From a virus, in the IMG/VR virus record IMGVR_UViG_3300029267_002727, positions 33,715-97,714 of that record: 64,000 nt of DNA. The stretch is one strand, 5' to 3'. Positions 6,886 through 18,950 of the stretch are shown in pieces; the stretch's first letter is position 1, and every line of letters begins with the position of its first letter. The position numbers were made by a program, and so were the translations under genes. The notes under the pieces were generated by a model. It was given only the letters and a program-made list of their open reading frames with translations, had not been told where the DNA came from and did no database searches.

Positions 6886-7389
6886 CTACCCTGATCCAGC
6901 TAGTACCCACTTTAGGGTTGTTACTCTAAACTTCTTCCTTCCCCAATCCAAGTAGATGGGGCCTCCGTCCATCGCCCAATGAAGAATATCAGACGTCAAC
7001 AGCCCCGCAACCAACCCTATCGTCATCTCTGTGGAAAGAGGCCATTGCACACTAAAAATCCTTAGACATGCATGTATGTAAGCCACCCTGCCGGCGGTCC
7101 CCACCACCGGGAAATGGGAAAGTACGTGTCTGTGCCGACAAACCCGGGCATAGGGATCCCAAACCGCCAACCACAGATACCCGACGACGGGGAGCCACTT
7201 GATGAGCTTTCTCTCCCCATGGTGAATAATGATCTGGTCAATCTGGTCAAGGTCCGGCCCAACGAAGATTCCCAGAACGCACCCCGCCGCTGCAAAGAGC
7301 CCGACCCAGGGATCCACCATCGCGGCGACGAGCAATCCGGTAGGGATTGCGGCCAGGAGGGAAGCCGCTGCATGGGCTTTACCATCCAT
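6886..7389 (-). CDS. YdjM/DUF2227-like membrane metal-dependent hydrolase
   Basis: 167 residues with three or four hydrophobic segments and a scattered set of metal-ligand candidates: KAH at 4-6, GPDLDQID near 44-51, HRHVLSH near 86-92 and DILHW near 134-138. That H...PDxD...HR..SH...DxxHW layout is the one I recall for YdjM-type inner-membrane hydrolases and DUF2227 proteins. Substrate unknown. The ATG at 7389 has only a weak ribosome site. Confidence 0.6.
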   Translation of the reverse strand: MDGKAHAAASLLAAIPTGLLVAAMVDPWVGLFAAAGCVLGIFVGPDLDQIDQIIIHHGERKLIKWLPVVGYLWLAVWDPYARVCRHRHVLSHFPVVGTAGRVAYIHACLRIFSVQWPLSTEMTIGLVAGLLTSDILHWAMDGGPIYLDWGRKKFRVTTLKWVLAGSG

Positions 7390-7415
7390 CTACCATCTCG
7401 TACTTCTCCAGAAAC

Positions 7416-7745
7416 TCATTTGAGCTCATCCTCCAGAGCGCCCAGGTATGGCTCTAGCCCATATCCCAAATGCTGGTCATGGGCATAGTTCAATAGGTCC
7501 TCGGCCGCCCTCCGCAGGCTCTTTTTGCGCCGGGGAAGAAAACCCACCAATCGCCCGAGGAAGTAGTCGTCCGCGAGTACCCTTAGCCCGATCAACCCAA
7601 AGGCCAAGATCGCCACCTTCACCGTGAAAACCCCCCACCCTGGGCCGACCATCTCCACCCCGCATACGCGAACTACCGCCCCCTGCAACATCCCCAGCAG
7701 AACCAGGATAACCAGTCTCGTTATAGACTCCCAGACGAAACGCAT
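7416..7745 (-). CDS. Small membrane protein with basic cytoplasmic tail
   Basis: 109 residues from the ATG at 7745, chosen over one at 7757 because GGGGGA sits at the right distance. Two hydrophobic segments (about 7-29 and 37-57) are followed by LPRRKKSLRRAAEDLLNYAHD, giving a cytoplasmic basic C-terminus by the positive-inside rule. First gene after the promoter at 7837-7864. Confidence 0.6.
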   Translation of the reverse strand: MRFVWESITRLVILVLLGMLQGAVVRVCGVEMVGPGWGVFTVKVAILAFGLIGLRVLADDYFLGRLVGFLPRRKKSLRRAAEDLLNYAHDQHLGYGLEPYLGALEDELK

Positions 7746-7836
7746 GTCATCCCCCATGCGAAAACAGGCGCGCCATTGCCGGAAAGCAATGACATGCCTG
7801 CCCCAATAGATGAAACAAGGACGCGCCCATATTTCT

Positions 7837-7864
7837 ATTTTAGCGCAAAAACCATAGCTGTCAA
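7837..7864 (-). promoter_or_regulatory. Sigma70-like promoter of the left minus-strand operon
   Basis: TTGACA (7864-7859), 16 bp, TAAAAT (7842-7837). An AATTG-CCCC element precedes the -35 box as in the other promoters of this window, but the GTTAAG half-site after the -35 box is missing. It overlaps the end of the gene at 7869-8090 and would drive the genes from 7745 down to 1. Confidence 0.75.
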
Positions 7865-7868
7865 GGGG

Positions 7869-8090
7869 TCAATTCAAGGGTACGATCTGCTCCTCCCGCA
7901 ATTCGAGGTCGTGCCGCTGCTCGTTGCAACTGGAACAGCGAATGATCCCCGCCCGCCCCGGAGAGATGTTGTCGTACGACTGGTCCATCAGGTGGCCCGT
8001 CTCATCGAAACGCGTGACAGCCCAGCCGATCACCTGCCGCTTCAGATATACACCACAAAGAGACCCGCAATGAGGACAAGCAGGAAGCAT
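7869..8090 (-). CDS. Zinc-ribbon protein
   Basis: 73 residues from ATG 8090 with GGGAGG upstream. CPHC at residues 5-8 and CSSC near residue 56 form a four-cysteine zinc ribbon. The segment between is polar with a WAVTRFDETG core. First gene after the promoter at 8187-8215. Zinc ribbons of this size bind DNA, RNA or protein; nothing here decides which. Confidence 0.65.
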   Translation of the reverse strand: MLPACPHCGSLCGVYLKRQVIGWAVTRFDETGHLMDQSYDNISPGRAGIIRCSSCNEQRHDLELREEQIVPLN

Positions 8091-8186
8091 ACCAACCTCC
8101 CCACAGACCAAGAGGGCGCCCACGAGCCCGTCCGATGTGTGCGTAACTCCGTGGCGCCCTCACCAGCATGTCTGATAAGCGCTTCA

Positions 8187-8215
8187 ATGATACCACGGGA
8201 GAGGCAGGCAGTCAA
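8187..8215 (-). promoter_or_regulatory. Sigma70-like promoter upstream of the zinc-ribbon gene
   Basis: TTGACT (8215-8210), 17 bp, TATCAT (8192-8187) on the minus strand, with the palindrome CCAATTGG about ten bases upstream of the -35 box. No GTTAAG half-site. Between the last minus-strand gene and the first plus-strand gene, so this region is the divergent switch point of the left part of the window. I could not find an equally good plus-strand promoter here. Confidence 0.65.
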
Positions 8216-8277
8216 GAGGCCAATTGGCATGCCCAACCTTAATGCGCGCGCCAGTCAGAATAGGTAGTAGTAATGAC

Positions 8278-8305
8278 TGTAGATGAAGGTGGGGTCGCAT
8301 CTACA
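8278..8305 (+). other. Hairpin in the leader of the first plus-strand gene
   Basis: Perfect 8-bp inverted repeat TGTAGATG / CATCTACA with a 12-base loop, ending 15 bases before the GGAGG of the gene at 8333. May act on translation or mRNA stability. Confidence 0.5.
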
Positions 8306-8332
8306 ACAAAATCATATAAGGAGGCAGGGGCA

Positions 8333-8551
8333 ATGTCAATCGTAGACCTGGATCAAGACAAGCGCGCAGCATTCGCAATGTACTTTTACGGCCATCGCGC
8401 GAGCCTGAATAAGGCCCTTGCAATGGCGGGGCTCTCTTATCTCGATCAAGAGGCCGCTTTGTTCGTTCGTCCTAATATGCCCATCAATGCCGAGATTCTC
8501 GACAATGGGGATATTATCATTCGTAGGCGCTGGCAACGACCAGTGCGCTAG
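8333..8551 (+). CDS. Hypothetical small protein
   Basis: 72 residues, ATG 8333 with GGAGGC upstream. Ends in ILDNGDIIIRRRW, resembling NDAGDIIIIRSRF in the protein at 8822, so the two may be distant relatives. Soluble. First gene of the plus-strand region. Confidence 0.6.
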   Translation: MSIVDLDQDKRAAFAMYFYGHRASLNKALAMAGLSYLDQEAALFVRPNMPINAEILDNGDIIIRRRWQRPVR

Positions 8552-8566
8552 TATAAGGAGAATAAG

Positions 8567-8704
8567 ATGCACAGCTATGGCGACGATCACAACCCGATGC
8601 TCCGTATCCTGCTCATTGCACCGTTCGCGGCAGCAGTCGTCATGTTGGGGATGTATCTGATCCCCACCATCAGCACCATTATGGCGACACTCACCTCGTT
8701 CTAG
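8567..8704 (+). CDS. Very small membrane protein (45 residues)
   Basis: ATG 8567 after AAGGAG. Residues about 12-42 are hydrophobic with a proline kink (LLIAPFAAAVVMLGMYLIP), preceded by a polar HSYGDDHN head. One transmembrane segment. Too short for a family call. Confidence 0.6.
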   Translation: MHSYGDDHNPMLRILLIAPFAAAVVMLGMYLIPTISTIMATLTSF

Positions 8705-8711
8705 TCTCTAT

Positions 8712-8797
8712 CACCCATCCTTGTGGCAGCCTTCGGGCATTTGACTTGGATGGGTGCAGAGCATAGCACATACAACTGTGTATGTGCTGCGTTCTGC
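8712..8797 (+). ncRNA. Structured intergenic RNA element with UUCG tetraloop
   Basis: Two adjacent structures between the genes at 8567 and 8822. The first pairs CACCCATCC (8712-8720) with GGATGGGTG (8748-8756) and holds an inner GCC-TTCG-GGC tetraloop hairpin (8729-8738). The second pairs AGCACATACA (8765-8774) with TGTATGTGCT (8779-8788), clamped by GCAGA / TCTGC outside. The GGAGG of the next gene follows directly. No known riboswitch class was recognised. Confidence 0.6.
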
Positions 8798-8821
8798 ACA
8801 ATATCATATAGGAGGAAGATC

Positions 8822-9007
8822 ATGAAGACAACAGTATTGGTATTCAAGAACGATGCAGGGGACATCATCATCATTCGTAGCCGCTTCTCCTTGAGCGAGG
8901 CCGATCCCGCCAAGCTCTCGCCGTTCGAGCGCTGTGTGGCAGCAAAGGCCAGGGAGAAGGGGCTGCACGTAGAGATTGGGGAGCTCACAATCCCCAGCCC
9001 CGCATAA
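8822..9007 (+). CDS. Hypothetical small protein
   Basis: 61 residues, ATG 8822, AGGAGG upstream. Begins TTVLVFKNDAGDIIIIRSRF, then a helix-rich, Lys/Glu-rich part. Possibly related to the protein at 8333 through the GDIII-R segment. Preceded and followed by strong RNA hairpins. Confidence 0.6.
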   Translation: MKTTVLVFKNDAGDIIIIRSRFSLSEADPAKLSPFERCVAAKAREKGLHVEIGELTIPSPA

Positions 9008-9019
9008 CAATATACACCT

Positions 9020-9106
9020 GGCCCTATCCAGCATAGGGCCCAGGTCAGAATTGTCTATATGCAAATGTAGACAGTTCTGACCTGGGAGCGCTCCGTTGTG
9101 GAGCGC
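9020..9106 (+). ncRNA. Three-hairpin RNA cassette, copy 1
   Basis: Three consecutive hairpins: GGCCCTAT/ATAGGGCC (9020-9040), a 19-bp stem (9039-9057 with 9068-9086, one wobble) closed by the loop TATGCAAATG, and GCGCTCC/GGAGCGC (9088-9106). The same order of hairpins and the identical loop recur at 9468-9561 with different stem sequences, so the fold rather than the sequence is conserved. It lies in the leader of the gene at 9147. Confidence 0.7.
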
Positions 9107-9146
9107 CTATATATGCTCTCTCTTCAGAGGGCAGGAGGTTATTAGC

Positions 9147-9455
9147 ATGAACGCCATCAAGTTTGACGGGCTGCTCTTTCTCAGTATCGACAAGCTGGCA
9201 GCTTACATCGGCCGTCGATATGGTTATCTGGCAGGCGTGCCAGAGGATCACCCTCAGATCGCTGTTGTGTCTGCTCTGCACGGGCTCAGCGAAGAATACT
9301 TCTTTGATCTCGAGGGCATAGCTGTGCAGAGGCCAAGGCACGACTGGCCAGAAACCCCGCAATGGGCCAAGGATATGGCAGAGAGCTACGGCTACCCACA
9401 ACCCTCTTATGAGGAGGACGACATAGCCGATGGGCAATGCACTATGTGGGACTAA
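9147..9455 (+). CDS. Hypothetical protein
   Basis: 102 residues, ATG 9147 with AGGAGG. Helical N-terminal part with FLSIDKLAAYIGRRYGY, then an acidic, Pro/Tyr/Trp-containing tail. No family recognised. Flanked on both sides by the two copies of the three-hairpin RNA cassette. Confidence 0.6.
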   Translation: MNAIKFDGLLFLSIDKLAAYIGRRYGYLAGVPEDHPQIAVVSALHGLSEEYFFDLEGIAVQRPRHDWPETPQWAKDMAESYGYPQPSYEEDDIADGQCTMWD

Positions 9456-9467
9456 CAACTAAATAGA

Positions 9468-9561
9468 GGGCCCTGTACTAGCAGGGCCCCAAACCAGAAT
9501 TGCCTATATGCAAATGTAGACAATTCTGGTTTGGGATGCGGGGGTAATAGTGCCCCCACAT
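9468..9561 (+). ncRNA. Three-hairpin RNA cassette, copy 2
   Basis: GGGCCCTG/CAGGGCCC (9468-9489), then a 19-bp stem (9488-9506 with 9517-9535, one C-A mismatch) with the same 10-base loop TATGCAAATG as copy 1, then ATGcGGGGG/CCCCCaCAT (9536-9561). AGGTCAG/CTGACCT of copy 1 is replaced by AAACCAG/CTGGTTT here, a compensatory change. Confidence 0.7.
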
Positions 9562-9566
9562 GTTAA

Positions 9567-9708
9567 TGGGCCATTGCTGAGAGCCCCGCGAGAAGCCAAG
9601 TCAGGCTACATACCTTGGGCTTGCCCTCCGTATAAGTAGCTGCCGTGCGACCAACACGGTACTGGCGTAGCAGGAGACGTCCTGCGCGGGCTTCTCAGCA
9701 GTGGCCCA
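9567..9708 (+). ncRNA. Large multibranched RNA structure
   Basis: A long closing stem pairs TGGGCCA (9567-9573) with TGGCCCA (9702-9708), TGCTGAGA (9575-9582) with TCTCAGCA (9693-9700), and GCCC plus GCG (9583-9590) with CGCGGGC (9685-9691). It encloses small hairpins AGCC/GGCT (9594-9607), CCGTG/CACGG with a 7-base loop (9643-9659) and GCAGGA/TCCTGC (9670-9685). It ends in a T-run and then the AGGAGG of the next gene. It could be a leader, a regulatory RNA or a terminator with readthrough; no known class matched. Confidence 0.6.
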
Positions 9709-9733
9709 TTTTTCTATAGGAGGTGTATAGGAA

Positions 9734-9874
9734 GTGCGCAATGGAAAGGCCGCAGTATATATCGTGCTTGCGGCGAGCCTGGTTTGCGCAGGGCTCGCCT
9801 CGCCCCTGATCCTGGAGGCGCTGGAGTTCATCGCCCAAGTCCTATGGTACATGTTCCTGGGGCCTATTCAGTAG
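9734..9874 (+). CDS. Very small membrane protein (46 residues, GTG start)
   Basis: GTG 9734 with AGGAGGT ten bases upstream. Hydrophobic from about residue 7 to 42 with one charged LEALE break, so one long or two short membrane segments. Starts RNGKAAVYIVLAASLVCAG. Could equally be a secreted peptide with a signal sequence. Confidence 0.55.
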   Translation: MRNGKAAVYIVLAASLVCAGLASPLILEALEFIAQVLWYMFLGPIQ

Positions 9875-9886
9875 AGGAGGAATCCG

Positions 9887-10093
9887 ATGATCGAAAACGT
9901 GTACGGCAACCCCTGGATCCACATGATCAATCAGGCCATCCTGGCCAACCCGGCGCCCCTCGTGGCGCCCCCGTCCCACACCAAGGGCGTCTGCCCGCCT
10001 TACTCTGGGCCCTCCAAGAGGACCCGGGCCAAGCGTGCGGCCAAGCGTCACCCGCGCCGCGGCACAGGGAACTGCGGTAGGCAGCGCTCATGA
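9887..10093 (+). CDS. Small protein with basic tail
   Basis: 68 residues, ATG 9887 with AGGAGG. First half hydrophobic-polar, second half very basic (SKRTRAKRAAKRHPRRG), as in nucleic-acid or ribosome-binding tails. Ends in an ATGA overlap with the next gene. Confidence 0.55.
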   Translation: MIENVYGNPWIHMINQAILANPAPLVAPPSHTKGVCPPYSGPSKRTRAKRAAKRHPRRGTGNCGRQRS

Positions 10094-10275
10094 TCACCCT
10101 CGAGTATCAGTTCAAGTCGGATGCCGAGAGAGACTTTCTGGCCAGCTACATCTTCAACCAGGCCCTCGGCATGAAGGAGGTGGCAAAAGAGGCCGTCCTC
10201 CCAGGTGAGCGCGAGAAGCTAGAGAACAAGGCGCAGGCCCTGCGCCGGCTCGCGGTCGCGATCGACAACACATAG
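10090..10275 (+). CDS. Hypothetical helical protein
   Basis: 61 residues, ATGA-coupled to the gene before. Amphipathic helices with many Glu, Lys and Ala (EVAKEAVLPGEREKLENKA). No family recognised. Confidence 0.55.
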   Translation: MITLEYQFKSDAERDFLASYIFNQALGMKEVAKEAVLPGEREKLENKAQALRRLAVAIDNT

Positions 10276-10331
10276 GGGTTCCAGCTTGGGCGTCGTATCA
10301 AAACATCTTACACAGCACAAAAGAATAGCCT

Positions 10332-10433
10332 GCTGGCGGGCATTGTACACCAGCGCCTAACTGGTTGAAATAGACCAGACGAATCTGTAACCCGTCTCGT
10401 GGCGGGTGTGGCCTCCCAGCGGTTTGGGCGGCC
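10332..10433 (+). ncRNA. String of hairpins in a 270-base intergenic region
   Basis: The stretch 10276-10545 has no gene. It holds GCTGG/CCAGC (10332-10354), CTGGT/ACCAG (10361-10378), AGACG/CGTCT (10377-10397) and GGCC-CCCA/TGGG-GGCC (10410-10433), followed directly by the conserved leader at 10439. A tRNA was considered and rejected. Probably a structured RNA or a complex leader. Confidence 0.45.
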
Positions 10434-10438
10434 GAAAC

Positions 10439-10545
10439 GCGTAAGCTCGGCGGGGGCTTACGCAAAAACCTTAAAGCCTCTATAAGGTTTTTGCGTGTGC
10501 CCCGGCTACGGCTCGAGGCGCCAATCTTCCGTGGAGGTAGGTTCG
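10439..10545 (+). promoter_or_regulatory. Conserved structured 5' leader, copy A
   Basis: Hairpin P1 GCGTAAGC/GCTTACGC (10439-10463), hairpin P2 CGCAAAAACCTTA/TAAGGTTTTTGCG (10461-10495), and an almost invariant 53-base tail (10493-10545) ending at the start codon. P1 and P2 share the bases CGC (10461-10463), so they may compete. CCCCG (10500-10504) can pair with the P1 loop CGGGG. CTACGG (10506-10511) can pair with CCGTGG (10529-10534), which contains half of the GGAGG ribosome site. These are the marks of a cis-acting translational regulator. Confidence 0.65.
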
Positions 10546-10860
10546 ATGGGTATGTACTGCGACGTTTATGGGGTCGAGGTCAAGATGGCCGGCCTGCTCG
10601 CCGTTGCCGCTGACGAAGTCGTGGGTGGCGATGACTGCGGGGTCGTTGTCATCTCACGCGAAGACGCCATGGAGATCCTGTCCGTGATGCGTGGCGAACT
10701 GCTGAACGGCTGGGCCAACAAGGCCAACGTTTACAGTGGGGACGCCCCGCTTTCGGGTGTTCAGGATATCCTTCACTTCGCCGGTGATGTGGTCGCATTC
10801 AGGCAGCTCCTGCTATGGGTAGCCTATGAGAAAGGAGAAGAGGAGCTAGTGTTCGCCTGA
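10546..10860 (+). CDS. Hypothetical protein under the structured leader
   Basis: 104 residues, ATG 10546 nine bases after GGAGG. Soluble, mixed fold, begins GMYCDVYGVEVKMAGLLAV. Shares its whole 5' leader with the gene at 10980, so the two are likely co-regulated. No family recognised. Confidence 0.6.
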   Translation: MGMYCDVYGVEVKMAGLLAVAADEVVGGDDCGVVVISREDAMEILSVMRGELLNGWANKANVYSGDAPLSGVQDILHFAGDVVAFRQLLLWVAYEKGEEELVFA

Positions 10861-10870
10861 CAATCAAATA

Positions 10871-10979
10871 GCGCAAGTTCCAGCCGGGGCTTGCGCAGAG
10901 CTCACTCTCACAAGAGGGTGATCTCTGCGTGTGCCCCGGCTACGGCTCGTGGCACCAATCTTCCGTGGAGGTAAGTTCA
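10871..10979 (+). promoter_or_regulatory. Conserved structured 5' leader, copy B
   Basis: Same layout as copy A: P1 GCGCAAG/CTTGCGC (10871-10896), P2 16 bp with one mismatch (10894-10909 with 10914-10929), and the invariant tail (10927-10979). P2 has a different sequence from copy A but keeps its pairing. Here CCCCGGCT (10934-10941) is perfectly complementary to AGCCGGGG in the P1 loop (10882-10889), an 8-bp pseudoknot. Confidence 0.7.
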
Positions 10980-11684
10980 GTGTCTCAGTCCAAGTTTTCT
11001 CTCGCGTTGGTTGCGCTCTTGAGCGTGGCCCTCGGGGCCGTCCTGGCCCTGCTGATCGCTCGCCCCGCAGCCTCCGTGGCTGCCCCCCAGACCTCTGGCC
11101 CCGCGGCCTCCGTGGCTGCCCCCCAGGCCTCTGGCCTGTTGTCCCAGTCCGAGATGGAATCGCTGGCTGCCAATCGCGTGGAGTTCGTGCGTGAAGATGG
11201 CGCCCGCTGCACCATTCTCTCCAACGGCGAGCTCGACTGCGAGTGCTGCCAGTGCCAGCAGGAGGCCGCCCCGTGCATCAATACCACACCTGTGGTTACC
11301 GTGTCCGCACCCGTCACGTTCACGAAGGTCGTCACCGTACAACTCCCGTGCAAGGAAGTTGCTACCGAGGACGAAGAGGCGTTCCTGATCGACGATCCCC
11401 CGGATCGCCCCGATGATCCCGGTGATGAGCCTGACACGCCCGATGGGCCCGATACGCCTGATGACCCCGGCGATCCCGACACGCCCGATGATCCCGGTGA
11501 TGAGCCCGACACGCCTGACAAGCCCGACAGGCCAGCCGATGATGGCGACAAGGAGGGCAACGGGAACAATGGCGTGGGGAACGGCTATGACCCGCAGCCC
11601 AAGGGTGACCCCAAACCCAACGACACCGGGGACGATATGGGCCCCGGTAACCCAGACAACAAGGGCGGCAAGAAGGACAAGTAA
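10980..11684 (+). CDS. Membrane-anchored Asp/Pro-rich repeat protein (GTG start)
   Basis: 234 residues from GTG 10980. Residues about 6-27 are a signal anchor (FSLALVALLSVALGAVLALL). Two copies of AASVAAPQ follow, then a cysteine-rich patch (CECCQCQQ), a Val/Thr-rich strand region, and from about residue 140 a tail of DDPGDEPDTPD-type repeats ending GGKKDK. The tail is acidic, extended and probably outside the membrane. The tail DNA is built of short imperfect tandem repeats and can expand or contract. Such proteins act as spacers on cell or virion surfaces; the exact role is unknown. Confidence 0.7.
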   Translation: MSQSKFSLALVALLSVALGAVLALLIARPAASVAAPQTSGPAASVAAPQASGLLSQSEMESLAANRVEFVREDGARCTILSNGELDCECCQCQQEAAPCINTTPVVTVSAPVTFTKVVTVQLPCKEVATEDEEAFLIDDPPDRPDDPGDEPDTPDGPDTPDDPGDPDTPDDPGDEPDTPDKPDRPADDGDKEGNGNNGVGNGYDPQPKGDPKPNDTGDDMGPGNPDNKGGKKDK

Positions 11685-11695
11685 AGGAAAGGGCA

Positions 11696-11926
11696 ATGAA
11701 ATACAGGACGGCAGCAGGCAGGGCGTTCAAGATCCCGGCCGGCTCCCACGTGCACGTGGAGGTCAGGCCAGATGAAATCATCGTCACCAGGGGGAACGGT
11801 GGCGTCGCAAACGAACTCCTGGAGGCCGCAGTCAAGAACGGCATCCAGTACACACCGCAGGGAGACCTGCGCCTTGTTTCGGACACCCTCAGAAGGACCG
11901 GGGGCGTCTTTCATCTCAAAGGATAG
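11696..11926 (+). CDS. Hypothetical small protein
   Basis: 76 residues, ATG 11696 after AAGGAAAGG. Strand-rich start (YRTAAGRAFKIPAGSHVHVE) followed by a helix; looks like a compact soluble domain. No family recognised. Confidence 0.6.
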   Translation: MKYRTAAGRAFKIPAGSHVHVEVRPDEIIVTRGNGGVANELLEAAVKNGIQYTPQGDLRLVSDTLRRTGGVFHLKG

Positions 11927-11934
11927 GAGGCAAG

Positions 11935-12264
11935 ATGGACATCACGAGCATAACGCAAGAGATCGCCGAGGTCGGCCCCGAGACCACTGATTATCGGAAC
12001 GTCCGCCAGCGCGCGATAGACGCTGGCGCTACCGAGCTCTGCATCATCATCCAGTACAGTAATAACCTCGGTGCTGGTGTGATGCGGTGCCTCGTGGATG
12101 GGATCGAGAAGAACGTGCCCGCCCCCATGTGGAAGGCCGTCGAATGGCTGGACGGGTACGTCGTGCGCGACACCCCCGACGAAGGGGGGATGGTGCGGTA
12201 CGTCGTGGGCCCCGTGGACTTCGAGGACGCGCGGCGCCGCTACAAGGAGGAGTACCGTGCCTAG
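11935..12264 (+). CDS. Hypothetical protein
   Basis: 109 residues, ATG 11935 with AGGAGG. Central LCIIIQYSNN strand, then a W-rich segment and a basic C-terminus (DARRRYKEEYRA). Overlaps the next gene by eight bases. Confidence 0.6.
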   Translation: MDITSITQEIAEVGPETTDYRNVRQRAIDAGATELCIIIQYSNNLGAGVMRCLVDGIEKNVPAPMWKAVEWLDGYVVRDTPDEGGMVRYVVGPVDFEDARRRYKEEYRA

Positions 12265-12463
12265 CTGCTGGTATGACGCGATCCGCGTGGTAGTGCGCTA
12301 CATCTTTGATGGATACGTGACCGAGATTCACGACACCGATCGCATCGGGGCCAACGAACACATCGAAGACGCCATTAACCGATTCGGCCTCGAGAAGATC
12401 GAAGCAGACGTTTACCGGGACGCATCGGGCGGCCTGGTCGTTATCACACAGGAGGCAAGTTAA
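12257..12463 (+). CDS. Hypothetical small protein (GTG start)
   Basis: 68 residues. The GTG at 12257 has AAGGAGGAG at the right distance and overlaps the end of the previous gene, so I prefer it. Reads PSCWYDAIRVVVRYIFDGYV then an acidic helix. No family recognised. Confidence 0.55.
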   Translation: MPSCWYDAIRVVVRYIFDGYVTEIHDTDRIGANEHIEDAINRFGLEKIEADVYRDASGGLVVITQEAS

Positions 12464-12464
12464 G

Positions 12465-13802
12465 ATGGCTATCAGCAGGAAAAAGATGATCGAGACGGCC
12501 GTGCAAGCGGCCAAGGACATGGGGTGGGAATCGGTCAAATTCGAGGATGACGGCAAGGACGTCATGATCGTTCTCAATGCCCCGGGCGCGGCCGAGCAGA
12601 TGACCGAGCCATGCCGGCTACCCACGCTGGTCCGGGCCGTGCGCAACGTTGGGCCCGCAGCGGACTACCCGGCCATCGAAGAGTACCCGGTGCGCTACGA
12701 CGAGAGCATGCCCTACGAAGGCCACGAGGACCCGCGCGAGCAGTACGTCCAGCCAGTAACCAAGTGGGACGAGGTTTACTCGCCCCCAGAGGATCGGCCG
12801 GGCGATTACGTAGAAGAGGAGGCATTTCCTCCCGAACACTACGGGCCCGAGAAGGACCCCTTCACCGTGGACGCGGCCGTAGAGATCTCCGAGGCCGAGA
12901 GCCACGCAGATGAACCGACCGAGCTCGAGAAACCCGAGCCGGATGATGATCCGTTCGCCGGCCTGGAAGTGCCGGCCGAGATCGTGGAGGTGGCGACCGA
13001 GCCGCTCCCCGAGAAGGAGGAGGCAAAAGTGGCGAAGAAACGTGCGCGTCGTGCGAGTGAGTCCCGTGACGATCTGATCGCTCGCTGCAAGGCCCTGGGG
13101 ATCACGGGCTACTCTCGCCTGAACGTCAAGTCTCTGAGGGCCCTGATCCGCAACGTGGAGCGAAACCGCGAAGAGATCGGCCGGCTCGCCGCGGCGCTAG
13201 ATGCCGCCGAGCAGCTACCGGGCCCAATCGAGGACGTCAGTGGTCACGGCATCGAGCCGCCCACCATCAAGGTGAGCCCCAAGATGGCGGCGACCGAGGG
13301 TGACGTGTTTGTGCAGGACCGCGGTGGGATCGCCCACCCAGAACAGATCTTCCCCCAGGAGGAAACCACAGTGAACCTCTCTGCTGAAACCGTCGAGAAG
13401 CTGGGCCTGCGCGACGAGATGATCGACCTGGGTGAGGGCCGCTGCGCCATTGCCCGCCACGGCAACGATACCAAGGTGTTCAGCCGCAAGATCAGCGCCA
13501 GCCTGAAGACTCAGATGGAGGGGAACGGCTGGAAGTTCTTCAACGTGACCGGCGAGCGAGCGCGGGAACTGTTGCGCAACAAGCGCAAGGCCGCAGGCAT
13601 GGGCACCGCGCCCGTCGCCATCTCCCACAAGCGCGGTGAGGACTGCGTGGAGCGTCTGAACGGCCGGGTGTACGCAAAGCCTGGCTACATGTTCCGCCTC
13701 AGCCTCAAATCCGACCCGTCCGTAACCAACGAGTTCGCCACCATCAACGAGGCCGTATGGCGCAAGCTCTGGAATATCGCGGTGGTGTACGTGGGCGTGT
13801 AG
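12465..13802 (+). CDS. Acidic multidomain protein with a Rho-N/SAP-like helical motif
   Basis: 445 residues, ATG 12465 with AGGAGG. An N-terminal helical domain (1-40), a long acidic, proline-rich disordered linker (80-190), a basic patch KKRARRAS, then DDLIARCKALGITGYSRLN and KSLRALI (202-228), which has the spacing of Rho N-terminal/SAP helix-extended-helix motifs that bind nucleic acid. The C-terminal 200 residues are a separate mixed domain. It may bind DNA or RNA; no closer call is possible. A hairpin follows its stop. Confidence 0.5.
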   Translation: MAISRKKMIETAVQAAKDMGWESVKFEDDGKDVMIVLNAPGAAEQMTEPCRLPTLVRAVRNVGPAADYPAIEEYPVRYDESMPYEGHEDPREQYVQPVTKWDEVYSPPEDRPGDYVEEEAFPPEHYGPEKDPFTVDAAVEISEAESHADEPTELEKPEPDDDPFAGLEVPAEIVEVATEPLPEKEEAKVAKKRARRASESRDDLIARCKALGITGYSRLNVKSLRALIRNVERNREEIGRLAAALDAAEQLPGPIEDVSGHGIEPPTIKVSPKMAATEGDVFVQDRGGIAHPEQIFPQEETTVNLSAETVEKLGLRDEMIDLGEGRCAIARHGNDTKVFSRKISASLKTQMEGNGWKFFNVTGERARELLRNKRKAAGMGTAPVAISHKRGEDCVERLNGRVYAKPGYMFRLSLKSDPSVTNEFATINEAVWRKLWNIAVVYVGV

Positions 13803-13812
13803 ACCGTTCTCT

Positions 13813-13836
13813 GGGGGAGCCCCTGGTGGCTCCCCC
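13813..13836 (+). terminator. Terminator-like hairpin
   Basis: Perfect 9-bp GGGGGAGCC/GGCTCCCCC with a 6-base loop, eleven bases after the stop of the 445-residue gene and just before the next promoter. It lacks a clear T-run, so it may be a weak or factor-assisted terminator or an mRNA end. Confidence 0.6.
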
Positions 13837-13869
13837 CACCTACTCAGGGGGCGAATGTGAATTGGCCCC

Positions 13870-13898
13870 TTGACAGGTGTTTAGTTGCATGGTAGAAT
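13870..13898 (+). promoter_or_regulatory. Promoter with CTTGAC-N4-GTTTAG operator, RMF-array unit
   Basis: TTGACA (13870-13875), 17 bp, TAGAAT (13893-13898). GTTTAG follows the -35 box after three bases, and GAATTGG lies just upstream, as in several other promoters here. Drives the genes from 13921 on. Confidence 0.8.
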
Positions 13899-13920
13899 GA
13901 GAACCAGATAAGGAGGCCCT

Positions 13921-14469
13921 ATGAACGATCAAGACCTAGCACGGCTAGTACTGGCAGGATACCCGATCTGGGTCGAGGTGACGGACGCACGGCTAGAAGT
14001 CTGCCCCCCGGACGGCCCTTCCCCCTCCCCATTTCCGTACGCCGAGTGGCTCGAGTACGCGGACGAGAACACCACCGAGGCCCTGGACATCTACGTAGAG
14101 TACAACGGCGAAATGTACTGGGCCGGCGAGCTCCTGAGCGGCATAGGGATCGGGCCCCTCCTCCGTAGTGAGGACGCCATGCGGGAGTATGCGTATCAGG
14201 GCGCGCGCGACCCGTTCCGACAGTGGGACGGGTTCTGTACAGAATGCTACAAGTTTTGTAGGAGGCGGCGCGTGATGCGGTCGATCGGTGGCGGGGAGTG
14301 GCAGTGCCCTTACTGTGACGCTATCGAGTATCACCCAGGGGACCTAGAGAGCCCGACCCTGACCACGAACAAGCAGAGAGCTCGGCGAATGGCCGAGCTC
14401 CTATGGGGTCTAGGGTTGCAGGAGCAAGCCCTGGAGTACGATCCAAGATATTCCCCGGAGGTAAACTGA
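13921..14469 (+). CDS. Protein with C-terminal zinc ribbon
   Basis: 182 residues, ATG 13921 with AAGGAGG. The N-terminal part is acidic and Trp/Tyr-rich; the zinc ribbon is CTEC near residue 106 and CPYC near 127. The FCTEC codons contain the palindrome TTCTGTACAGAA (14233-14244), shared with the zinc protein at 20077. First gene of its transcription unit. Confidence 0.6.
   Translation: MNDQDLARLVLAGYPIWVEVTDARLEVCPPDGPSPSPFPYAEWLEYADENTTEALDIYVEYNGEMYWAGELLSGIGIGPLLRSEDAMREYAYQGARDPFRQWDGFCTECYKFCRRRRVMRSIGGGEWQCPYCDAIEYHPGDLESPTLTTNKQRARRMAELLWGLGLQEQALEYDPRYSPEVN
14233..14244. repeat. Dispersed palindrome, site 3 (12-bp form)
   Basis: TTCTGTACAGAA in the FCTE codons of the gene at 13921; the flanking GC is shared with site 4. 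Confidence 0.7.
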
Positions 14470-14690
14470 TGGACCCAGAACAGGCACGCACGATTTCGAT
14501 AGTACGCGAACTGGTGTGCGGCAAGCAACTGACGCTACCCAATGGTTACACCCTGGCCATGAGCAAAGATATGACCATCGGGTTCATCATGGGGTGTCAG
14601 GACTACATTGTGGGATCTATGACACTGGCGCAACTGCACGCACTACTCACCAAGTTCGATATCGGACCAGTCATCCCGGAGGTGAACTGA
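14469..14690 (+). CDS. Hypothetical small protein
   Basis: 73 residues, TGATG-coupled to the gene before, with GGAGGTAAAC upstream. Two helices and a strand pair (LPNGYTLAMSKDMTIGFIMG). No family recognised. Confidence 0.55.
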   Translation: MDPEQARTISIVRELVCGKQLTLPNGYTLAMSKDMTIGFIMGCQDYIVGSMTLAQLHALLTKFDIGPVIPEVN

Positions 14691-14944
14691 TGCAGAACCA
14701 CAAGGACGAACTGACCAGCAAGCAGATCGCGGAACGTGAAAGGCTCTTGGCGCACGGTCTCCCCGAAGGCTATGGGGAGGAAGTCCCGGAGATGGATGGG
14801 GAAGAAGACCCCCGCAGCCGGCACGAGCGACGCGCGGACGCAGCCAGGGCCCGGAAGAAGAAGGCCCGCGAGGCCAAGATCCGAGCCAGGCGTAATCGGG
14901 CCCGCAAGAACAAGCGAGGAAAGAAGCGAGGGAAGAAGCAATGA
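14690..14944 (+). CDS. Highly basic small protein
   Basis: 84 residues, TGATG-coupled. The first half is acidic and helical; the last 35 residues are almost only Arg, Lys and Ala (ARKKKAREAKIRARRNRARK), ending KKRGKKQ. It probably binds nucleic acid or the ribosome. The RMF-like array starts immediately after it. Confidence 0.6.
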   Translation: MQNHKDELTSKQIAERERLLAHGLPEGYGEEVPEMDGEEDPRSRHERRADAARARKKKAREAKIRARRNRARKNKRGKKRGKKQ

Positions 14945-15312
14945 GCGTGCTTAGTAACCCCACAGAGTGGGCAGAGGGATACCGGGCGTTCTGGCGAGGG
15001 CTGTCGTGGCAGGATACCCCGTACGAAAGCGGCCCAAAGTGGTCGGCATGGGATAGGGGCTGGACGTACGCGGCCAACCAAGAAGCGGAAGAACAGCGGC
15101 GGCGCAACGAGAGCGAACCAATCGACACACCCGCCAGCAGTGAACTATCCGTTGCCTGGTCCCGCGGCTATCTCCACTACTGGCACGACAACCGTCCCAA
15201 CGAGTATGAAAAAGGCTCCATCGAGTACGCCGACTGGCAGGTAGGGTTTGAAGATGCCGCCGAGGAGGACTACCTCGACACCATAGAAACTGAGGAGGAG
15301 CTTGATGATTGA
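14941..15312 (+). CDS. RMF-like protein, two domains
   Basis: 123 residues, ATGA-coupled. Two repeats of the pattern GYxAYxxG-x(5)-NPY-x(9)-WxxGWxxA: AEGYRAFWRG...TPYE...AWDRGW at about 11-45 and SRGYLHYWHD...NEYE...DWQVGF at about 72-105. The same spacing is found in E. coli ribosome modulation factor (GYQAGIAG...CPYQ...WLGGWREA), a 55-residue protein that drives ribosomes into inactive 100S dimers. Whether the phage copies bind ribosomes is inference. Confidence 0.6.
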   Translation: MSVLSNPTEWAEGYRAFWRGLSWQDTPYESGPKWSAWDRGWTYAANQEAEEQRRRNESEPIDTPASSELSVAWSRGYLHYWHDNRPNEYEKGSIEYADWQVGFEDAAEEDYLDTIETEEELDD

Positions 15313-15610
15313 GATCTACGAGGTGACGCACCACCTCCCCTACGTGTGCCCCAACTGTGAGGGCCGCCTGACTGTAGTGGGAACCGCAACGAACGAACGC
15401 AACAACCCGGTGATCGGCCTATACTGCCCGCGCTGTGACAGGGCAATGGAGATCGAGATCGTCCTCGACGGCCGGCGCAATCCGCACGCCGAGGGATATG
15501 CCCAGTACGAGCTCTACCTCGATGTTACCAACCCCTATCGCGATGAGTGGCACGCCCAGCGCTTTCATCAGGGAGTGGAAGACGCCAAGAAAGACGAGAT
15601 CCCCTTCTAG
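15305..15610 (+). CDS. Zinc ribbon fused to an RMF-like domain, SSB-tail-like C-terminus
   Basis: 101 residues, ATG 15305 with GAGGAGGAG, overlapping the previous gene. CPNC (15-18) and CPRC (41-44) form a zinc ribbon. An RMF-like domain follows (AEGYAQYELYLDVTNPYRDE, about 61-80, then a helix). The protein ends DEIPF, resembling the GEEIPF end of the SSB at 21512 and the DDDIPF tip of bacterial SSBs. Confidence 0.6.
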   Translation: MIEIYEVTHHLPYVCPNCEGRLTVVGTATNERNNPVIGLYCPRCDRAMEIEIVLDGRRNPHAEGYAQYELYLDVTNPYRDEWHAQRFHQGVEDAKKDEIPF

Positions 15611-15620
15611 GAGGACCAAG

Positions 15621-15911
15621 ATGAGTAGCGAGAGCTACCACGAGGGATACCTTGACTTCCAGCGCGGCCACGGGTGCCAATGCAACCCCTACACCCCCAT
15701 GACCTGCGAGTGGCGTGGTTGGAGAAATGGTTGGTTCCAGGCCAAGCAAGATAAGGGCTGGCCCTGGCACGAAGGCTACGATGCCTACCAGAATGGCATT
15801 TCCTGGACCGACAACCCGCATCCAGTGAACGCCGAAGACAATGCGTGGCTGGAGTGGGACGCCGGCTGGGAGCAGGCCCGGCGAGAAGAGGAAGCTATCC
15901 AGGATGAGTGA
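15621..15911 (+). CDS. RMF-like protein, two domains
   Basis: 96 residues, ATG 15621 with AGGAGG. Domains at about 7-41 (HEGYLDFQRG...CNPYT...WRGWRNGW) and 48-83 (HEGYDAYQNGISWTDNPHP...WLEWDAGWEQA). The second is among the closest to the RMF consensus in the window. Overlaps the next RMF-like gene by eight bases. Confidence 0.65.
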   Translation: MSSESYHEGYLDFQRGHGCQCNPYTPMTCEWRGWRNGWFQAKQDKGWPWHEGYDAYQNGISWTDNPHPVNAEDNAWLEWDAGWEQARREEEAIQDE

Positions 15912-16179
15912 ATCAACCGCCTACGTCGAAGGATACTGCGCTTGGGCAGATGGGAGCCTGTGCCCGTACGTTTCTCTGTCTCAGGAGTGGTGGGACTGGC
16001 ATCGCGGCTACTGGCAGGCTAAACAGGAGGACTTTGAGGCCCAAACCCCGTACCAGGAAGGCCATGAAGCCTACTTTCGAGACGTGGACCTGGACGATAA
16101 CCCCTACCCGCCCTCTGAGTCCGCGCACGCTGACTGGAACGCCGGCTGGACGCAGGGTGAGCTAGAGGTTATAGATTGA
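15904..16179 (+). CDS. RMF-like protein, two domains
   Basis: 91 residues, ATG 15904. Domains at about 7-40 (VEGYCAWADG...CPYVS...WWDWHRGYWQA) and 48-84 (QEGHEAYFRDVDLDDNPYP...DWNAGW). Same two-domain length and order as the gene just upstream, so the pair probably arose by duplication. Confidence 0.65.
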   Translation: MSESTAYVEGYCAWADGSLCPYVSLSQEWWDWHRGYWQAKQEDFEAQTPYQEGHEAYFRDVDLDDNPYPPSESAHADWNAGWTQGELEVID

Positions 16180-16197
16180 TAACCATATCTGGTTATC
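16178..16197 (+). other. Inverted repeat at the stop of an RMF-like gene
   Basis: GATAACC / GGTTATC with a 6-base spacer, overlapping the stop codon at 16177-16179. An operator or a small hairpin in the mRNA. The rest of the 113-base gap holds the repeats listed next. Confidence 0.5.
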
Positions 16198-16248
16198 GAC
16201 CAGGGCACGCACGTAGGGGCCCAAAAGAGTGAAGACGTCAGACACCTG

Positions 16249-16281
16249 TGTAGCGCTACAGTAGCGTTACACCGCGTTACA
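16249..16281 (+). repeat. Operator-like repeats upstream of an RMF-like gene
   Basis: A perfect 12-bp palindrome TGTAGCGCTACA (16249-16260) followed by two more copies of its right half, GCGTTACA at 16264-16271 and 16274-16281. The three GCGYTACA units are spaced 11 and 10 bases, one helical turn, and the last one runs into the ribosome site of the gene at 16293. Confidence 0.6.
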
Positions 16282-16292
16282 GGAGATATAGC

Positions 16293-16610
16293 ATGAGCCC
16301 ATTTGATGAAGGCTACCAAGCATACTGGAACGGCGAGGGCCCCGAGGCCAATGCGTACGAAGACGGCGAGAACAGGTTCTTCTGGAACACAGGCTGGGTA
16401 TGGGCAGAGTATGATGACGCCAGCCGCACGAATGAGCCAGCGCGCAAACTGCTCAGTGGCGAGGCCGTAGAGATCAACACGGTGGGAGGCCTGCGCGGAG
16501 CGATCGCGGCGCTGCCGGATGTACTCGATGTTCGGGCGTGCTCGGATCAGGGCTTCCACTTCATTACCCTCATGGTCGATGGGAACACGCTGCTTATGGA
16601 GGCTGAGTAA
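16293..16610 (+). CDS. RMF-like domain plus unknown C-terminal domain
   Basis: 105 residues, ATG 16293 with AGGAGAT. The RMF-like domain is at about 5-39 (DEGYQAYWNG...NAYE...FFWNTGWVWA). The remaining 60 residues form an alpha/beta domain (GGLRGAIAALPDVLDVRA) without a known family. Preceded by operator-like repeats, so it may start its own transcription. Confidence 0.6.
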   Translation: MSPFDEGYQAYWNGEGPEANAYEDGENRFFWNTGWVWAEYDDASRTNEPARKLLSGEAVEINTVGGLRGAIAALPDVLDVRACSDQGFHFITLMVDGNTLLMEAE

Positions 16611-16611
16611 T

Positions 16612-16812
16612 ATGTGGGGCTTTGAGATAGCAAGTGATGGTACTCCGGTGGCCGTTGAGGTGCCAACCCCGTACGAGCAGGGCCACCTGGCCTTCTTCGA
16701 GGACAAGGATCTGTCTGAGAACCCGCACATCCGTGACGACTACCGGGCAGAATGGGAGGATGGCTGGCACGCAGCCCGAGCCGAGCAGCGATGGCGGCGG
16801 AAGAGGAAATAA
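16612..16812 (+). CDS. RMF-like protein, one domain
   Basis: 66 residues, ATG 16612. After a 20-residue lead the domain is at about 22-55 (EQGHLAFFEDKDLSENPHI...EWEDGWHAA), closing with a basic RWRRKRK tail. Close to the second domain of the protein at 15904 (EGHEAYFRDVDLDDNPYP). Confidence 0.65.
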   Translation: MWGFEIASDGTPVAVEVPTPYEQGHLAFFEDKDLSENPHIRDDYRAEWEDGWHAARAEQRWRRKRK

Positions 16813-16814
16813 CT

Positions 16815-16853
16815 ATGAGCGAACTGAGCATACCCGAGATGGAGGCTGAGTAA
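16815..16853 (+). other. Possible 12-codon mini-ORF in a short duplication
   Basis: ATG...TAA encoding SELSIPEMEAE between two RMF-like genes, overlapping the next ATG. ATGGAGGCTGAGTAAT occurs here (16839-16854) and at the end of the gene at 16293 (16597-16612), so the mini-ORF looks like a remnant of a duplication whose GGAGG now serves the gene at 16853. Confidence 0.4.
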
Positions 16854-17092
16854 TGAGACCATGCGAGGAGCAAGAGTACAGGTGTGGACGCAATGCGTTC
16901 CTCGACTCGTTTCCATACGACAAAAGCAGATCGGGCGCCTGGCGCAGCGGCTGGATGCACGAGTATCACGTGGCCAGGCGCCAAGACCGGGCCGACCTCA
17001 CTGACGAGATCGAGGCAGCGCTGAGAAAGTACGGGCTATCCTTCCATGACGCGCACAATGCCGTCACAGAGGCCCTGGATCGTGTATTCTAG
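16853..17092 (+). CDS. RMF-like domain with helical C-terminal extension
   Basis: 79 residues, TAATG overlap. The domain at about 8-38 is shortened (CGRNAFLDSFPYDKSRS...AWRSGWMHEY), lacking the residues usually before PY. A 40-residue helical tail follows (LTDEIEAALRKYGLSFHDAH). Confidence 0.55.
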   Translation: MRPCEEQEYRCGRNAFLDSFPYDKSRSGAWRSGWMHEYHVARRQDRADLTDEIEAALRKYGLSFHDAHNAVTEALDRVF

Positions 17093-17100
17093 GAGGTGAC

Positions 17101-17445
17101 ATGACCGACAAATGCTACAACGAAGGCGTATTGGCCCGCAAGCGCAACGAGTCCAGGGATAGTTGCCCCTATTATACGTCCAATCGTGTAGACTGGCTCC
17201 GTGGCTGGGATGACCAGGACTGGCGTATCTCCCGTACTACCCCTATAGGCTACGACGACATCGTGGTACGGATACCTATGTACCCGGAGGACATGGCAGA
17301 CTGGCCGTACGCAGAGATACGGGAAGCCGTGATGGAAGCCCTGATAGAGGGGCTGGAAGATGTCTTCATCGCTACCCCCGCCTGTATGAGCAGGGAAGAC
17401 GCGGAGGAGTGCGTTGCCGAGGCGGTGGGCAGGGTGTGGCAATGA
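17101..17445 (+). CDS. RMF-like domain plus unknown C-terminal domain
   Basis: 114 residues, ATG 17101 with AGGAGG. Divergent RMF-like domain at about 6-40 (NEGVLARKRN...CPYYT...WLRGWDDQ), then a 75-residue domain with an acidic helix and two cysteines. The CPY is the same tripeptide as in E. coli RMF. Confidence 0.55.
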   Translation: MTDKCYNEGVLARKRNESRDSCPYYTSNRVDWLRGWDDQDWRISRTTPIGYDDIVVRIPMYPEDMADWPYAEIREAVMEALIEGLEDVFIATPACMSREDAEECVAEAVGRVWQ

Positions 17446-17463
17446 GCGCCGAGACATGGCAAG

Positions 17464-17694
17464 ATGGCACTATATAGTATAGCGGCCCTCGCAATAAGTG
17501 ACACCGGCTCCGAAATATGGGTCGGCAGTGTTCTGGCAGACACTCAGGAGGAGGCCGAGAGGTACGGCCTCGGGGTGGCGCTAGATTGGCTCCCCTGTTC
17601 GTGTGGGTACAGATCCCACAGATGCTGGGCAACACAGGTTCCTGACGGGTATGTACACAAAGCATACCACGAGATTCACGCTCTAGGGAGGTGA
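17464..17694 (+). CDS. Hypothetical protein, paralogue of the gene at 18283
   Basis: 76 residues, ATG 17464 with a poor ribosome site; a short overlapping ORF at 17442-17477 may couple it to the gene before. MALYSIA...GSEIWVGSVLADTQEEA aligns with MRLYAVA...YIETLAGSVWARSQDEA at 18283. Four cysteines in the middle. Function unknown. Confidence 0.55.
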   Translation: MALYSIAALAISDTGSEIWVGSVLADTQEEAERYGLGVALDWLPCSCGYRSHRCWATQVPDGYVHKAYHEIHALGR

Positions 17695-17698
17695 ATGT

Positions 17699-17857
17699 AT
17701 GTCTCGAACTTGTATGAGCAACGCCTGGAAAGAAGGGTTTAAGGCATACCAGTGCGGTGTTCCGTTCGGCGCTAACCCCTATCCCATTTGCTACGATGAT
17801 GACAGGTGGATAGAATGGGAAAATGGCTGGGTCCAAGCGTGTAAATGGTCGCAGTAA
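17699..17857 (+). CDS. RMF-like protein of canonical length (52 residues)
   Basis: ATG 17699 with GGGAGGTGA. The whole protein is one RMF-like domain: KEGFKAYQCGVPFGANPYP at about 11-29 and WIEWENGWVQA at 37-47. At 52 residues it has nearly the length of E. coli RMF (55), which makes it the clearest single-domain member of the array. Confidence 0.65.
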   Translation: MSRTCMSNAWKEGFKAYQCGVPFGANPYPICYDDDRWIEWENGWVQACKWSQ

Positions 17858-17877
17858 TGAGTGAGTAAGGAGGTAAC

Positions 17878-18279
17878 ATGAAAGACAATACAGTCAGTAA
17901 CCTGGCCCTCTGGCTGGGCGATGTTCTGGCCGAACGCGCTGACGAAGTGAGTGCCCCTGAGTGCCGCGCTGCCCTGGAGCAGGCAATGGAGAGCGTCGGG
18001 ATCCCAGACCACATGGAGGGATACGACGAGATCGTCGGTTTCGACGAGAAGAGCGACACCGAGCAGTGGCTGATCTGCTGGATCGGCACGCTTACCCCGG
18101 ACAAGCAGTTCGGGGACAGCCCCAGTCAGGGGTGGTCGCTCGTCGCCAACTTCTGGAGCGTGGAGTTCAACCTGTTCATCCGTGAGTTGGCCCAGAAGAT
18201 GGAAGAGCACGTTGACTACTGCGTAGACGAGAAGCTGAAAGAGATCCGCGACTACTATGAGTGCGGGGATGGGTGGTAA
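17878..18279 (+). CDS. Hypothetical protein
   Basis: 133 residues, ATG 17878 with AAGGAGG. Helix-rich acidic protein with a central LICWIGTLTPDKQFG segment and aromatic FWSVEFNLFIREL. No RMF motif although it sits inside the array. No family recognised. Confidence 0.6.
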   Translation: MKDNTVSNLALWLGDVLAERADEVSAPECRAALEQAMESVGIPDHMEGYDEIVGFDEKSDTEQWLICWIGTLTPDKQFGDSPSQGWSLVANFWSVEFNLFIRELAQKMEEHVDYCVDEKLKEIRDYYECGDGW

Positions 18280-18282
18280 GCC

Positions 18283-18567
18283 ATGAGACTGTACGCAGTG
18301 GCAATGAGCGCCAGCTACGTAGAGGGCAATGAGGTGTATATCGAGACCCTAGCAGGTTCGGTGTGGGCCCGCTCTCAAGATGAAGCCGTAGGAGCAGGGT
18401 ATCGCCGCGTTGCACAAGACTACCCCCTCAGCGACGGATGGGAAAACTACTCTGTCGCGGCCTCTGAGATCCCAGAAGAGGCGCGATTGATGCCCGAAAT
18501 CAAGCTGGAAGAAGACTACGAAGACTACGCACAAGGGTACGCCATGGGTTTGGGATACGACCCATAA
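18283..18567 (+). CDS. Hypothetical protein with partial RMF-like end
   Basis: 94 residues, ATG 18283 with a weak ribosome site. Paralogue of the protein at 17464 over the first 45 residues. The end reads YEDYAQGYAMGLGYDP, which looks like the beginning of an RMF-like domain cut off after the first glycine, possibly a domain lost by deletion. Confidence 0.55.
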   Translation: MRLYAVAMSASYVEGNEVYIETLAGSVWARSQDEAVGAGYRRVAQDYPLSDGWENYSVAASEIPEEARLMPEIKLEEDYEDYAQGYAMGLGYDP

Positions 18568-18587
18568 GACATGGTAAAGGAGCTAAC

Positions 18588-18950
18588 ATGAGCGCAACAG
18601 GCCCCGACCAAACTTGGGAAGAAGGATACAACGCCGGGTTCTACGAGGGGAAACACGCCGACAACCCATACAGTGGGCACGACGAGAGGTTTCACCCGTG
18701 GAACCAGGGCGTACAGGCAGGGTACGATGACGGCTTCTGGCCATTCTATGACGAGGGTATCGAAGCGCGCAGTGATCGCGAGCGCCTCGAAGATAACCCA
18801 TACGAGCCTCGCACTCTCGAGTCAGAGATGTGGAAACGCGGCTGGATAGCCGAGTTTGAGAGAGTGCACGAAGACCGTGGGTGGCACTGGCTGTTCAAAG
18901 CGTCTGATCGCATTGTCTTTCAGCCGGAGGGGGAGATATGCTCTACCTAG
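18588..18950 (+). CDS. RMF-like protein, two domains
   Basis: 120 residues, ATG 18588 with AAGGAGC. Domains at about 11-45 (EEGYNAGFYEGKHADNPYS...PWNQGVQAG) and 55-89 (DEGIEARSDRERLEDNPYE...MWKRGWIAE). A 30-residue extension follows. Last member of the array. Confidence 0.65.
   Translation: MSATGPDQTWEEGYNAGFYEGKHADNPYSGHDERFHPWNQGVQAGYDDGFWPFYDEGIEARSDRERLEDNPYEPRTLESEMWKRGWIAEFERVHEDRGWHWLFKASDRIVFQPEGEICST

Follow-up and report, generated by a model that had tools for sequence, protein, structure and literature searches.

In Escherichia coli ribosome modulation factor (RMF), ribosome binding involves residues R3, K5 and R11, of which R3 and K5 contact helix 28 in the 16S ribosomal RNA (rRNA), and G23 and R45 are required for dimerisation (PMC8778775). 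The RMF fold is known to switch partners, since BatR (PA3049), the RMF homologue of Pseudomonas aeruginosa, is reported to take no part in ribosome hibernation and to bind the kinase SrkA (PMC13411936). Phages encode proteins of the Rmf/CrpP fold as well (NF041886, NF041887; phrog_10492), which are mostly acidic, and phage Milano has been reported to carry two RMF-domain genes (PMC6588377). The locus described here lies in a stretch of 64,000 nucleotides (the window), bases 33715-97714 of the 97,714-bp, metagenome-derived IMG/VR viral record IMGVR_UViG_3300029267_002727. Positions 14941-18950 of the window hold an array of 13 consecutive open genes, each of them on the plus strand, and ten of the 13 carry an RMF-like domain. 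The domain is a known one; the scale and arrangement in which it occurs here are new.

The array contains 14 domain copies (by gene, in order: 2, 1, 2, 2, 1, 1, 1, 1, 1 and 2), 11 of which are firm and three (1b, 2 and 7) probable. Motif, outside profile and Pfam give the same count as a preliminary sequence-only reading of the window, which had proposed at least 14 such domains in ten of thirteen neighbouring genes. The outside profile comprises 51 domains from other viral contigs and was built with no sequence of the window in it, because circularity was to be avoided. It recovered ten copies at independent E-values (i-E) of 1.6e-3 or lower (3a, 3b, 4a, 4b, 13a, 13b, 6, 10, 1a and 5) and four weaker matches, all inside the array; outside the array, every score in six frames of the 64 kb was below 4 bits, and the best score in 20 sets of shuffled proteins was 9.2 bits. 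Domain 8 is firm via Pfam PF04957 (E 5.6e-8). Domains 1b, 2 and 7 are weak alone (i-E 0.43, 0.13 and 0.05 with the outside profile) and were accepted because of their motif and position, and domain 7 also because of its match to phrog_20222 (E 4e-4).

A search with PF04957, suggested by the sequence-only reading, gave two genes a score that exceeds the curated threshold of 27.9 bits (17101 with 33.2 bits and 18588 with 29.0 bits) and six further array genes scores of 13.5-24.4 bits; 14941 and 15305 were undetected by this model. The genes under the Pfam cut-off are linked to the RMF family through the outside phage profile. All array genes fall below the cut-off of 40 bits of NF041887 (Rmf_like_phage), the best of them at 15.1 bits, and of the CrpP models NF033696 and NF041856, only the latter scored at all, below threshold and in two genes. 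The pattern GYxAYxxG...NPY...WxxGWxxA, from which the domains had been recognised, is present as the array motif, with the amendment that some copies have TPY, NEY, CPY, NAY or FPY for NPY, and others F-GV, W-GF, W-GY or W-GV for W-GW. Residues of the fold core are retained across the 14 divergent copies. Start and stop codons are present in all 13 genes and Shine-Dalgarno sites on most of them. The proteins at 17699 and 16612 are of 52 and 66 residues, respectively, and the other array proteins, which are doublets or fusions, are of 79-123 residues.

Kinship to RMF, which had been read from the motif, is borne out by profiles and by predicted structures. A profile of array domains only, compared with the whole PDB, has RMF as its best match (2jrm, E 1.8e-5; 6h4n, 1.6e-3; 4v8g, 2.1e-3), and the best PDB match of the mixed phage profile is likewise RMF. 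The AlphaFold model of the 52-residue protein at 17699 consists of two helices (predicted local distance difference test score, pLDDT, 92.5; predicted template modelling score 0.76), and its top two fold matches among 350,542 PDB chains are Vibrio and E. coli RMF (probability 0.80 and 0.90), with E-values that are weak, near 1.5, owing to the shortness of the chain. The model of the doublet at 15621 (pLDDT 91.4) also has RMF as its best PDB match, with a probability of 0.98 and a root-mean-square deviation of 1.3 over 42 columns. Similarity to RMF in profile and in fold, on which the earlier proposal hinged, was thus found on both counts, and sequence and models show that the array domains are homologous to RMF and adopt its fold of two helices joined by a linker. 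With RMF (PF04957; E. coli Rmf, PDB 6H4N and 4V8G; Vibrio, 2JRM) they share the two-helix fold and the core GYxA...PY...W..GW..A. They differ from it in lacking R45 and the basic N-terminal arm (R3, K5, R11), in being mostly acidic, and in occurring as singles, doublets and fusions across ten clustered genes. The closest kin of the array by sequence and fold are the phage Rmf/CrpP fold proteins, which contain the same NPY-type domain.

RMF-like domains are common in phages, normally at one to three per genome. In a survey that covered records with a canonical copy and a few cultured phages, PF04957 gave 0-4 matches per record in 64 further viral records that the motif had picked out, and the phage alignment gave 0-4, mostly one, in 58 other records (49 from IMG/VR and 9 cultured phages); the present record gives 9 and 12 matches, respectively, all in 3.9 kb. 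The phage alignment includes some domains of the window, and the independent count is the one obtained with the 51-domain outside profile. Copies within other records are usually far apart, close pairs being found in two records. Other phages thus have 1-4 copies, mostly scattered, as against about fourteen in 3.9 kb here, and the comparison supports the array as exceptional in scale. A tandem-doublet pattern run on viral contigs gave ten matches, all of them chance ones and none a true doublet, a weak result, as the pattern misses the doublets of the window too.

Several phage genes are annotated as ribosome modulation factor, among them genes of Klebsiella phage K9PH25C2, Caulobacter phage CcrBL9 and Agrobacterium phage Milano; BFVD contains many phage RMF-fold proteins, and NCBIfam has a phage model. 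Use of several domains in one protein is also seen in gp32 of Pectobacterium phage MA11 (MN518139; 2512-3357 of the locus compared), a protein annotated as hypothetical that has three tandem RMF-like domains. It differs from the array in being one gene rather than ten and in its domain spacing and context. Searches of the open-licence literature turned up no account of such an array, nor any function ascribed to phage RMF-fold proteins. The statement of the sequence-only reading that no phage with such an array has been described therefore fits that literature, with the restriction that single and paired RMF-domain genes of phages are known (PMC6588377; NF041887). We also note bacterial NPY-type relatives of the phage domain: at four chromosomal loci, including those of Geothrix oryzisoli and a Holophagaceae metagenome-assembled genome, proteins carry a GYQAFKDGK..TNPY...GW domain followed by a KAKADKDAADKA-like sequence.

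The sequence-only reading had further raised conservation of the ribosome-contacting residues, and had envisaged that the phage shuts off, stores or re-tunes host ribosomes in stages. Neither agrees with the residues found, as R3, K5, R11 and R45 are almost wholly absent from the array, so that the residues for rRNA binding and dimerisation are largely missing. The comparison was made with 31 chromosomal RMF-type sequences, among the matches listed, as controls. In these the arm KRQKRDRLERA is near-constant; it is absent in the array. The 14 residues before the domain have a mean charge of +4.3 in the RMFs and about -1 in viral domains. The R45 position is basic (R or K) in 27 of the 31 RMFs, in 2 of 49 viral domains and in none of the 14 array domains, a loss common to viral domains as a group. 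The equivalents of R3 and K5 lie before the start codon (in several genes) or are non-basic in 13 of the 14 copies, the exception being 4b with a single K at R3, and the R11 position is basic only in domain 8; G23 is retained in six copies. The size and single-domain layout of RMF (about 55 residues, stand-alone) are found in one gene of the ten, 17699.

Membership of the array in the RMF domain family is supported, and its domains fail the class of hibernation factors in the residue and layout features compared. Because the contact residues and the layout are missing, the claim of hibernation factors is lowered, and the ribosome interpretation of the array is weak. That the array proteins are true RMF-like translation modulators is, in our judgement, unlikely, even with significant matches to RMF structures and to the family, the RMF length and layout of 17699 and the G23 retained in six copies to recommend it. 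In addition to the absent arginines and lysine, the doublets and fusions are unlike the single small protein at the RMF site (PMC8778775), and the phage's own genes have Shine-Dalgarno sequences, so that blocking that contact would presumably harm the phage too. The second thought of the sequence-only reading, reuse of the fold for another target, fits the evidence better than ribosome shutoff.

Mean identity among the copies of the array is 32.5%, as against 33.9% between these copies and outside domains. Recent tandem duplication was considered and rejected, since the copies are no closer to one another than to outside domains and the DNA repeats of the array are short; copies as divergent from each other as from those of unrelated phages argue against a recent duplication for dosage.

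The missing ribosome-contact residues, the divergence between copies, conservation confined to the core, the modular layout, the early position and the precedent of BatR favour an early-gene module of diversified RMF-fold binders, mostly for host proteins, a proposal for and against which we see the scales as roughly level. The RMF fold, in which two helices surround a G-Y / N-P-Y / W-x-x-G-W core, would have given rise by multiplication and diversification to some fourteen domains, which stand alone, form doublets or are joined to a zinc ribbon or another domain. The genes would be co-transcribed soon after infection from a promoter at 13870; both this promoter-like site and the location of the array before SSB and the replication genes point to early expression. 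The fixed core would hold the fold, leaving free surfaces to bind different partners, mostly host proteins such as enzymes, regulators or defence proteins, which could be blocked or redirected. The doublets, the zinc-ribbon fusion and the fusions to unknown domains indicate a modular binding unit, and the doublets and fusions may serve as two-faced adaptors. Ribosome-associated targets may apply to one or two copies. BatR is alike in the retargeting of the RMF fold that is proposed for the array; it differs in being encoded by one chromosomal gene, which belongs neither to a phage nor to an array, and in having its C-terminus extended by a helix. A more specific version, in which the paralogous, surface-diversified copies form a repertoire with each copy or doublet directed to a different host component, so that a small binding scaffold would serve as an early takeover kit, the first such array of this fold, is somewhat more doubtful and less likely than not. 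In the array, one genome offers fourteen natural variants that lack the contact residues, with which action of the phage branch on the ribosome can be tested against a general scaffold. RMF-fold genes occur widely in phages, at times under the annotation of ribosome modulation factor; if the scaffold proposal is true, many of these annotations are misleading.

Several points weigh against the proposal of diversified host-protein binders. The domain tree, in which the array needs 13 label changes versus 12.9 for shuffled labels and does not cluster, has little power, with 39 columns, a 42-residue domain that saturates quickly and zero starred branches. Queries with 17101, a 586-residue left-arm protein, the helicase and SSB found no relative carrying the array; they returned one identical IMG/VR contig fragment, which ends before the array, and one distant helicase. 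Another mode of ribosome binding, without the known contact residues, may exist, and acidity as the sole argument against ribosome binding was rejected, as neighbouring genes are equally acidic.

The acidity bears also on the idea that the array proteins mimic nucleic acid, or act as decoys, to counter host or defence enzymes that bind DNA or RNA, in the style of anti-restriction proteins. Six of the ten have a net charge of -11 to -19 and an isoelectric point of 4.0-4.6, and their position is early, both in favour of such mimics. The other four are only at -1 to -7, the neighbouring non-RMF early genes are just as acidic, and PADLOC has no match for nine of the ten proteins and two weak zinc-ribbon matches only for 15305, which leaves this idea improbable. 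Least probable of all, the array would be a by-product, an easily duplicated small open reading frame accumulated by recombination and drifting with little function per copy, as high divergence, the degenerate copies 1b, 2, 4a and 7 and a possible half copy at 18283 might suggest, were it not for start and stop codons in all the genes, Shine-Dalgarno sites on most and a fold core retained in 14 divergent copies.

A sigma-70-like promoter (TTGACA-17-TAGAAT with an extended -10 TG; 13870..13898, plus strand), a consensus match only, at 11 of 12 positions, precedes the leader genes and the array. The last gene before the array (14690..14944, plus strand) encodes an 84-residue, strongly basic protein (+13) without an RMF domain; it overlaps the first array gene by 4 bp. 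We note its long lysine/arginine tail directly before the acidic array genes, and the overlap of stop and start codons.

Gene 1 (14941..15312) encodes a doublet of the firm 1a (14968-15084; i-E 2.4e-8) and the weak 1b (about 15154-15270). Gene 2 (15305..15610) joins a zinc-ribbon-like CxxC...CxxC N-terminus, whose family scores are below cut-off, to the weak domain 2 (about 15485-15595). Gene 3 (15621..15911) is the modelled doublet of 3a (15636-15755; i-E 1.7e-13) and 3b (15765-15893; 1.7e-12). Gene 4 (15904..16179; PF04957 E 3e-5) is a doublet of the degenerate 4a (15919-16032; i-E 1.6e-3) and 4b (16051-16161; 6.7e-13). It is followed by a 113-bp gap (16180..16292), a possible regulatory site. 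A 20-bp inverted repeat, GATAACCA-TATC-TGGTTATC (whole: GATAACCATATCTGGTTATC), is situated at 16178-16197, and the gap also holds the perfect palindrome TGTAGCGCTACA and adjoining 11-bp repeats GTAGCGTTACA (16249-16271). They are the only sites of this sort in the window, and the region 16178-16292 is possibly an operator or a second promoter.

Beyond the gap, gene 5 (16293..16610; PF04957 E 0.01) combines domain 5 (16302-16418; i-E 1.6e-4) with a C-terminal domain of unknown kind. Gene 6 (16612..16812; PF04957 E 1.1e-4; PRK14563 E 4.6e-5) has domain 6 (16672-16788; i-E 2.2e-11) and a basic tail, RWRRKRK. Gene 7 (16853..17092; PF04957 E 0.075) has the weak domain 7 (about 16865-16980) and an extra C-terminal stretch. 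Gene 8 (17101..17445; phrog_10492 E 4.5e-8), with the best PF04957 score of the array, joins domain 8 (17116-17230) to an unknown C-terminal domain of ~70 residues. Gene 10 (17699..17857; i-E 2e-11) is the single-domain protein modelled above, and gene 13 (18588..18950) is a doublet of 13a (18615-18731; i-E 3.7e-5) and 13b (18747-18860; 9.1e-8). Three genes are without a recognised RMF domain. Gene 11 (17878..18279) encodes a 133-residue acidic protein with no family match. Genes 9 (17464..17694) and 12 (18283..18567) are paralogues (E 4e-7; 35% identity over 66 residues) and make up a second small duplicated family in the cluster; gene 12 ends in a possible half RMF motif, DYAQGYAMGLGYDP.

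The record is classed as linear and is possibly a fragment. Its left arm, outside the window, has structural genes on the minus strand, including a tail tube protein (PF18906) and an SU10-type adaptor match below cut-off; a 586-residue protein of this arm is a terminase candidate by position and size only, with no family match. Rightward genes in the window include SSB (21386), a replication initiator-like gene (42732), a DnaC-like helicase loader (44163) and a helicase (50079). A structural left arm and rightward replication genes identify the phage, by gene content, as one of tailed type, and the array is positioned near the start of the rightward early/replication arm, before SSB and the replication genes. 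Among cultured phages there is no near relative, a DNA similarity search of them giving none, and tblastn of the array proteins against them gave only weak or chance matches, for instance RNA polymerase beta subunits at E 9. No structured RNA of Rfam matches in the window. In the structural arm, a 2651-residue protein (record bases 7348-15303, left of the window) matches phrog_192, a DNA polymerase exonuclease subunit, with an E-value of 1.9e-32, which is unexpected among tail genes. Within the window, a 76-residue protein with CxxC pairs at 20077-20307 matches an HNH-endonuclease phrog (E 2.4e-7) and, below threshold, NMD3.

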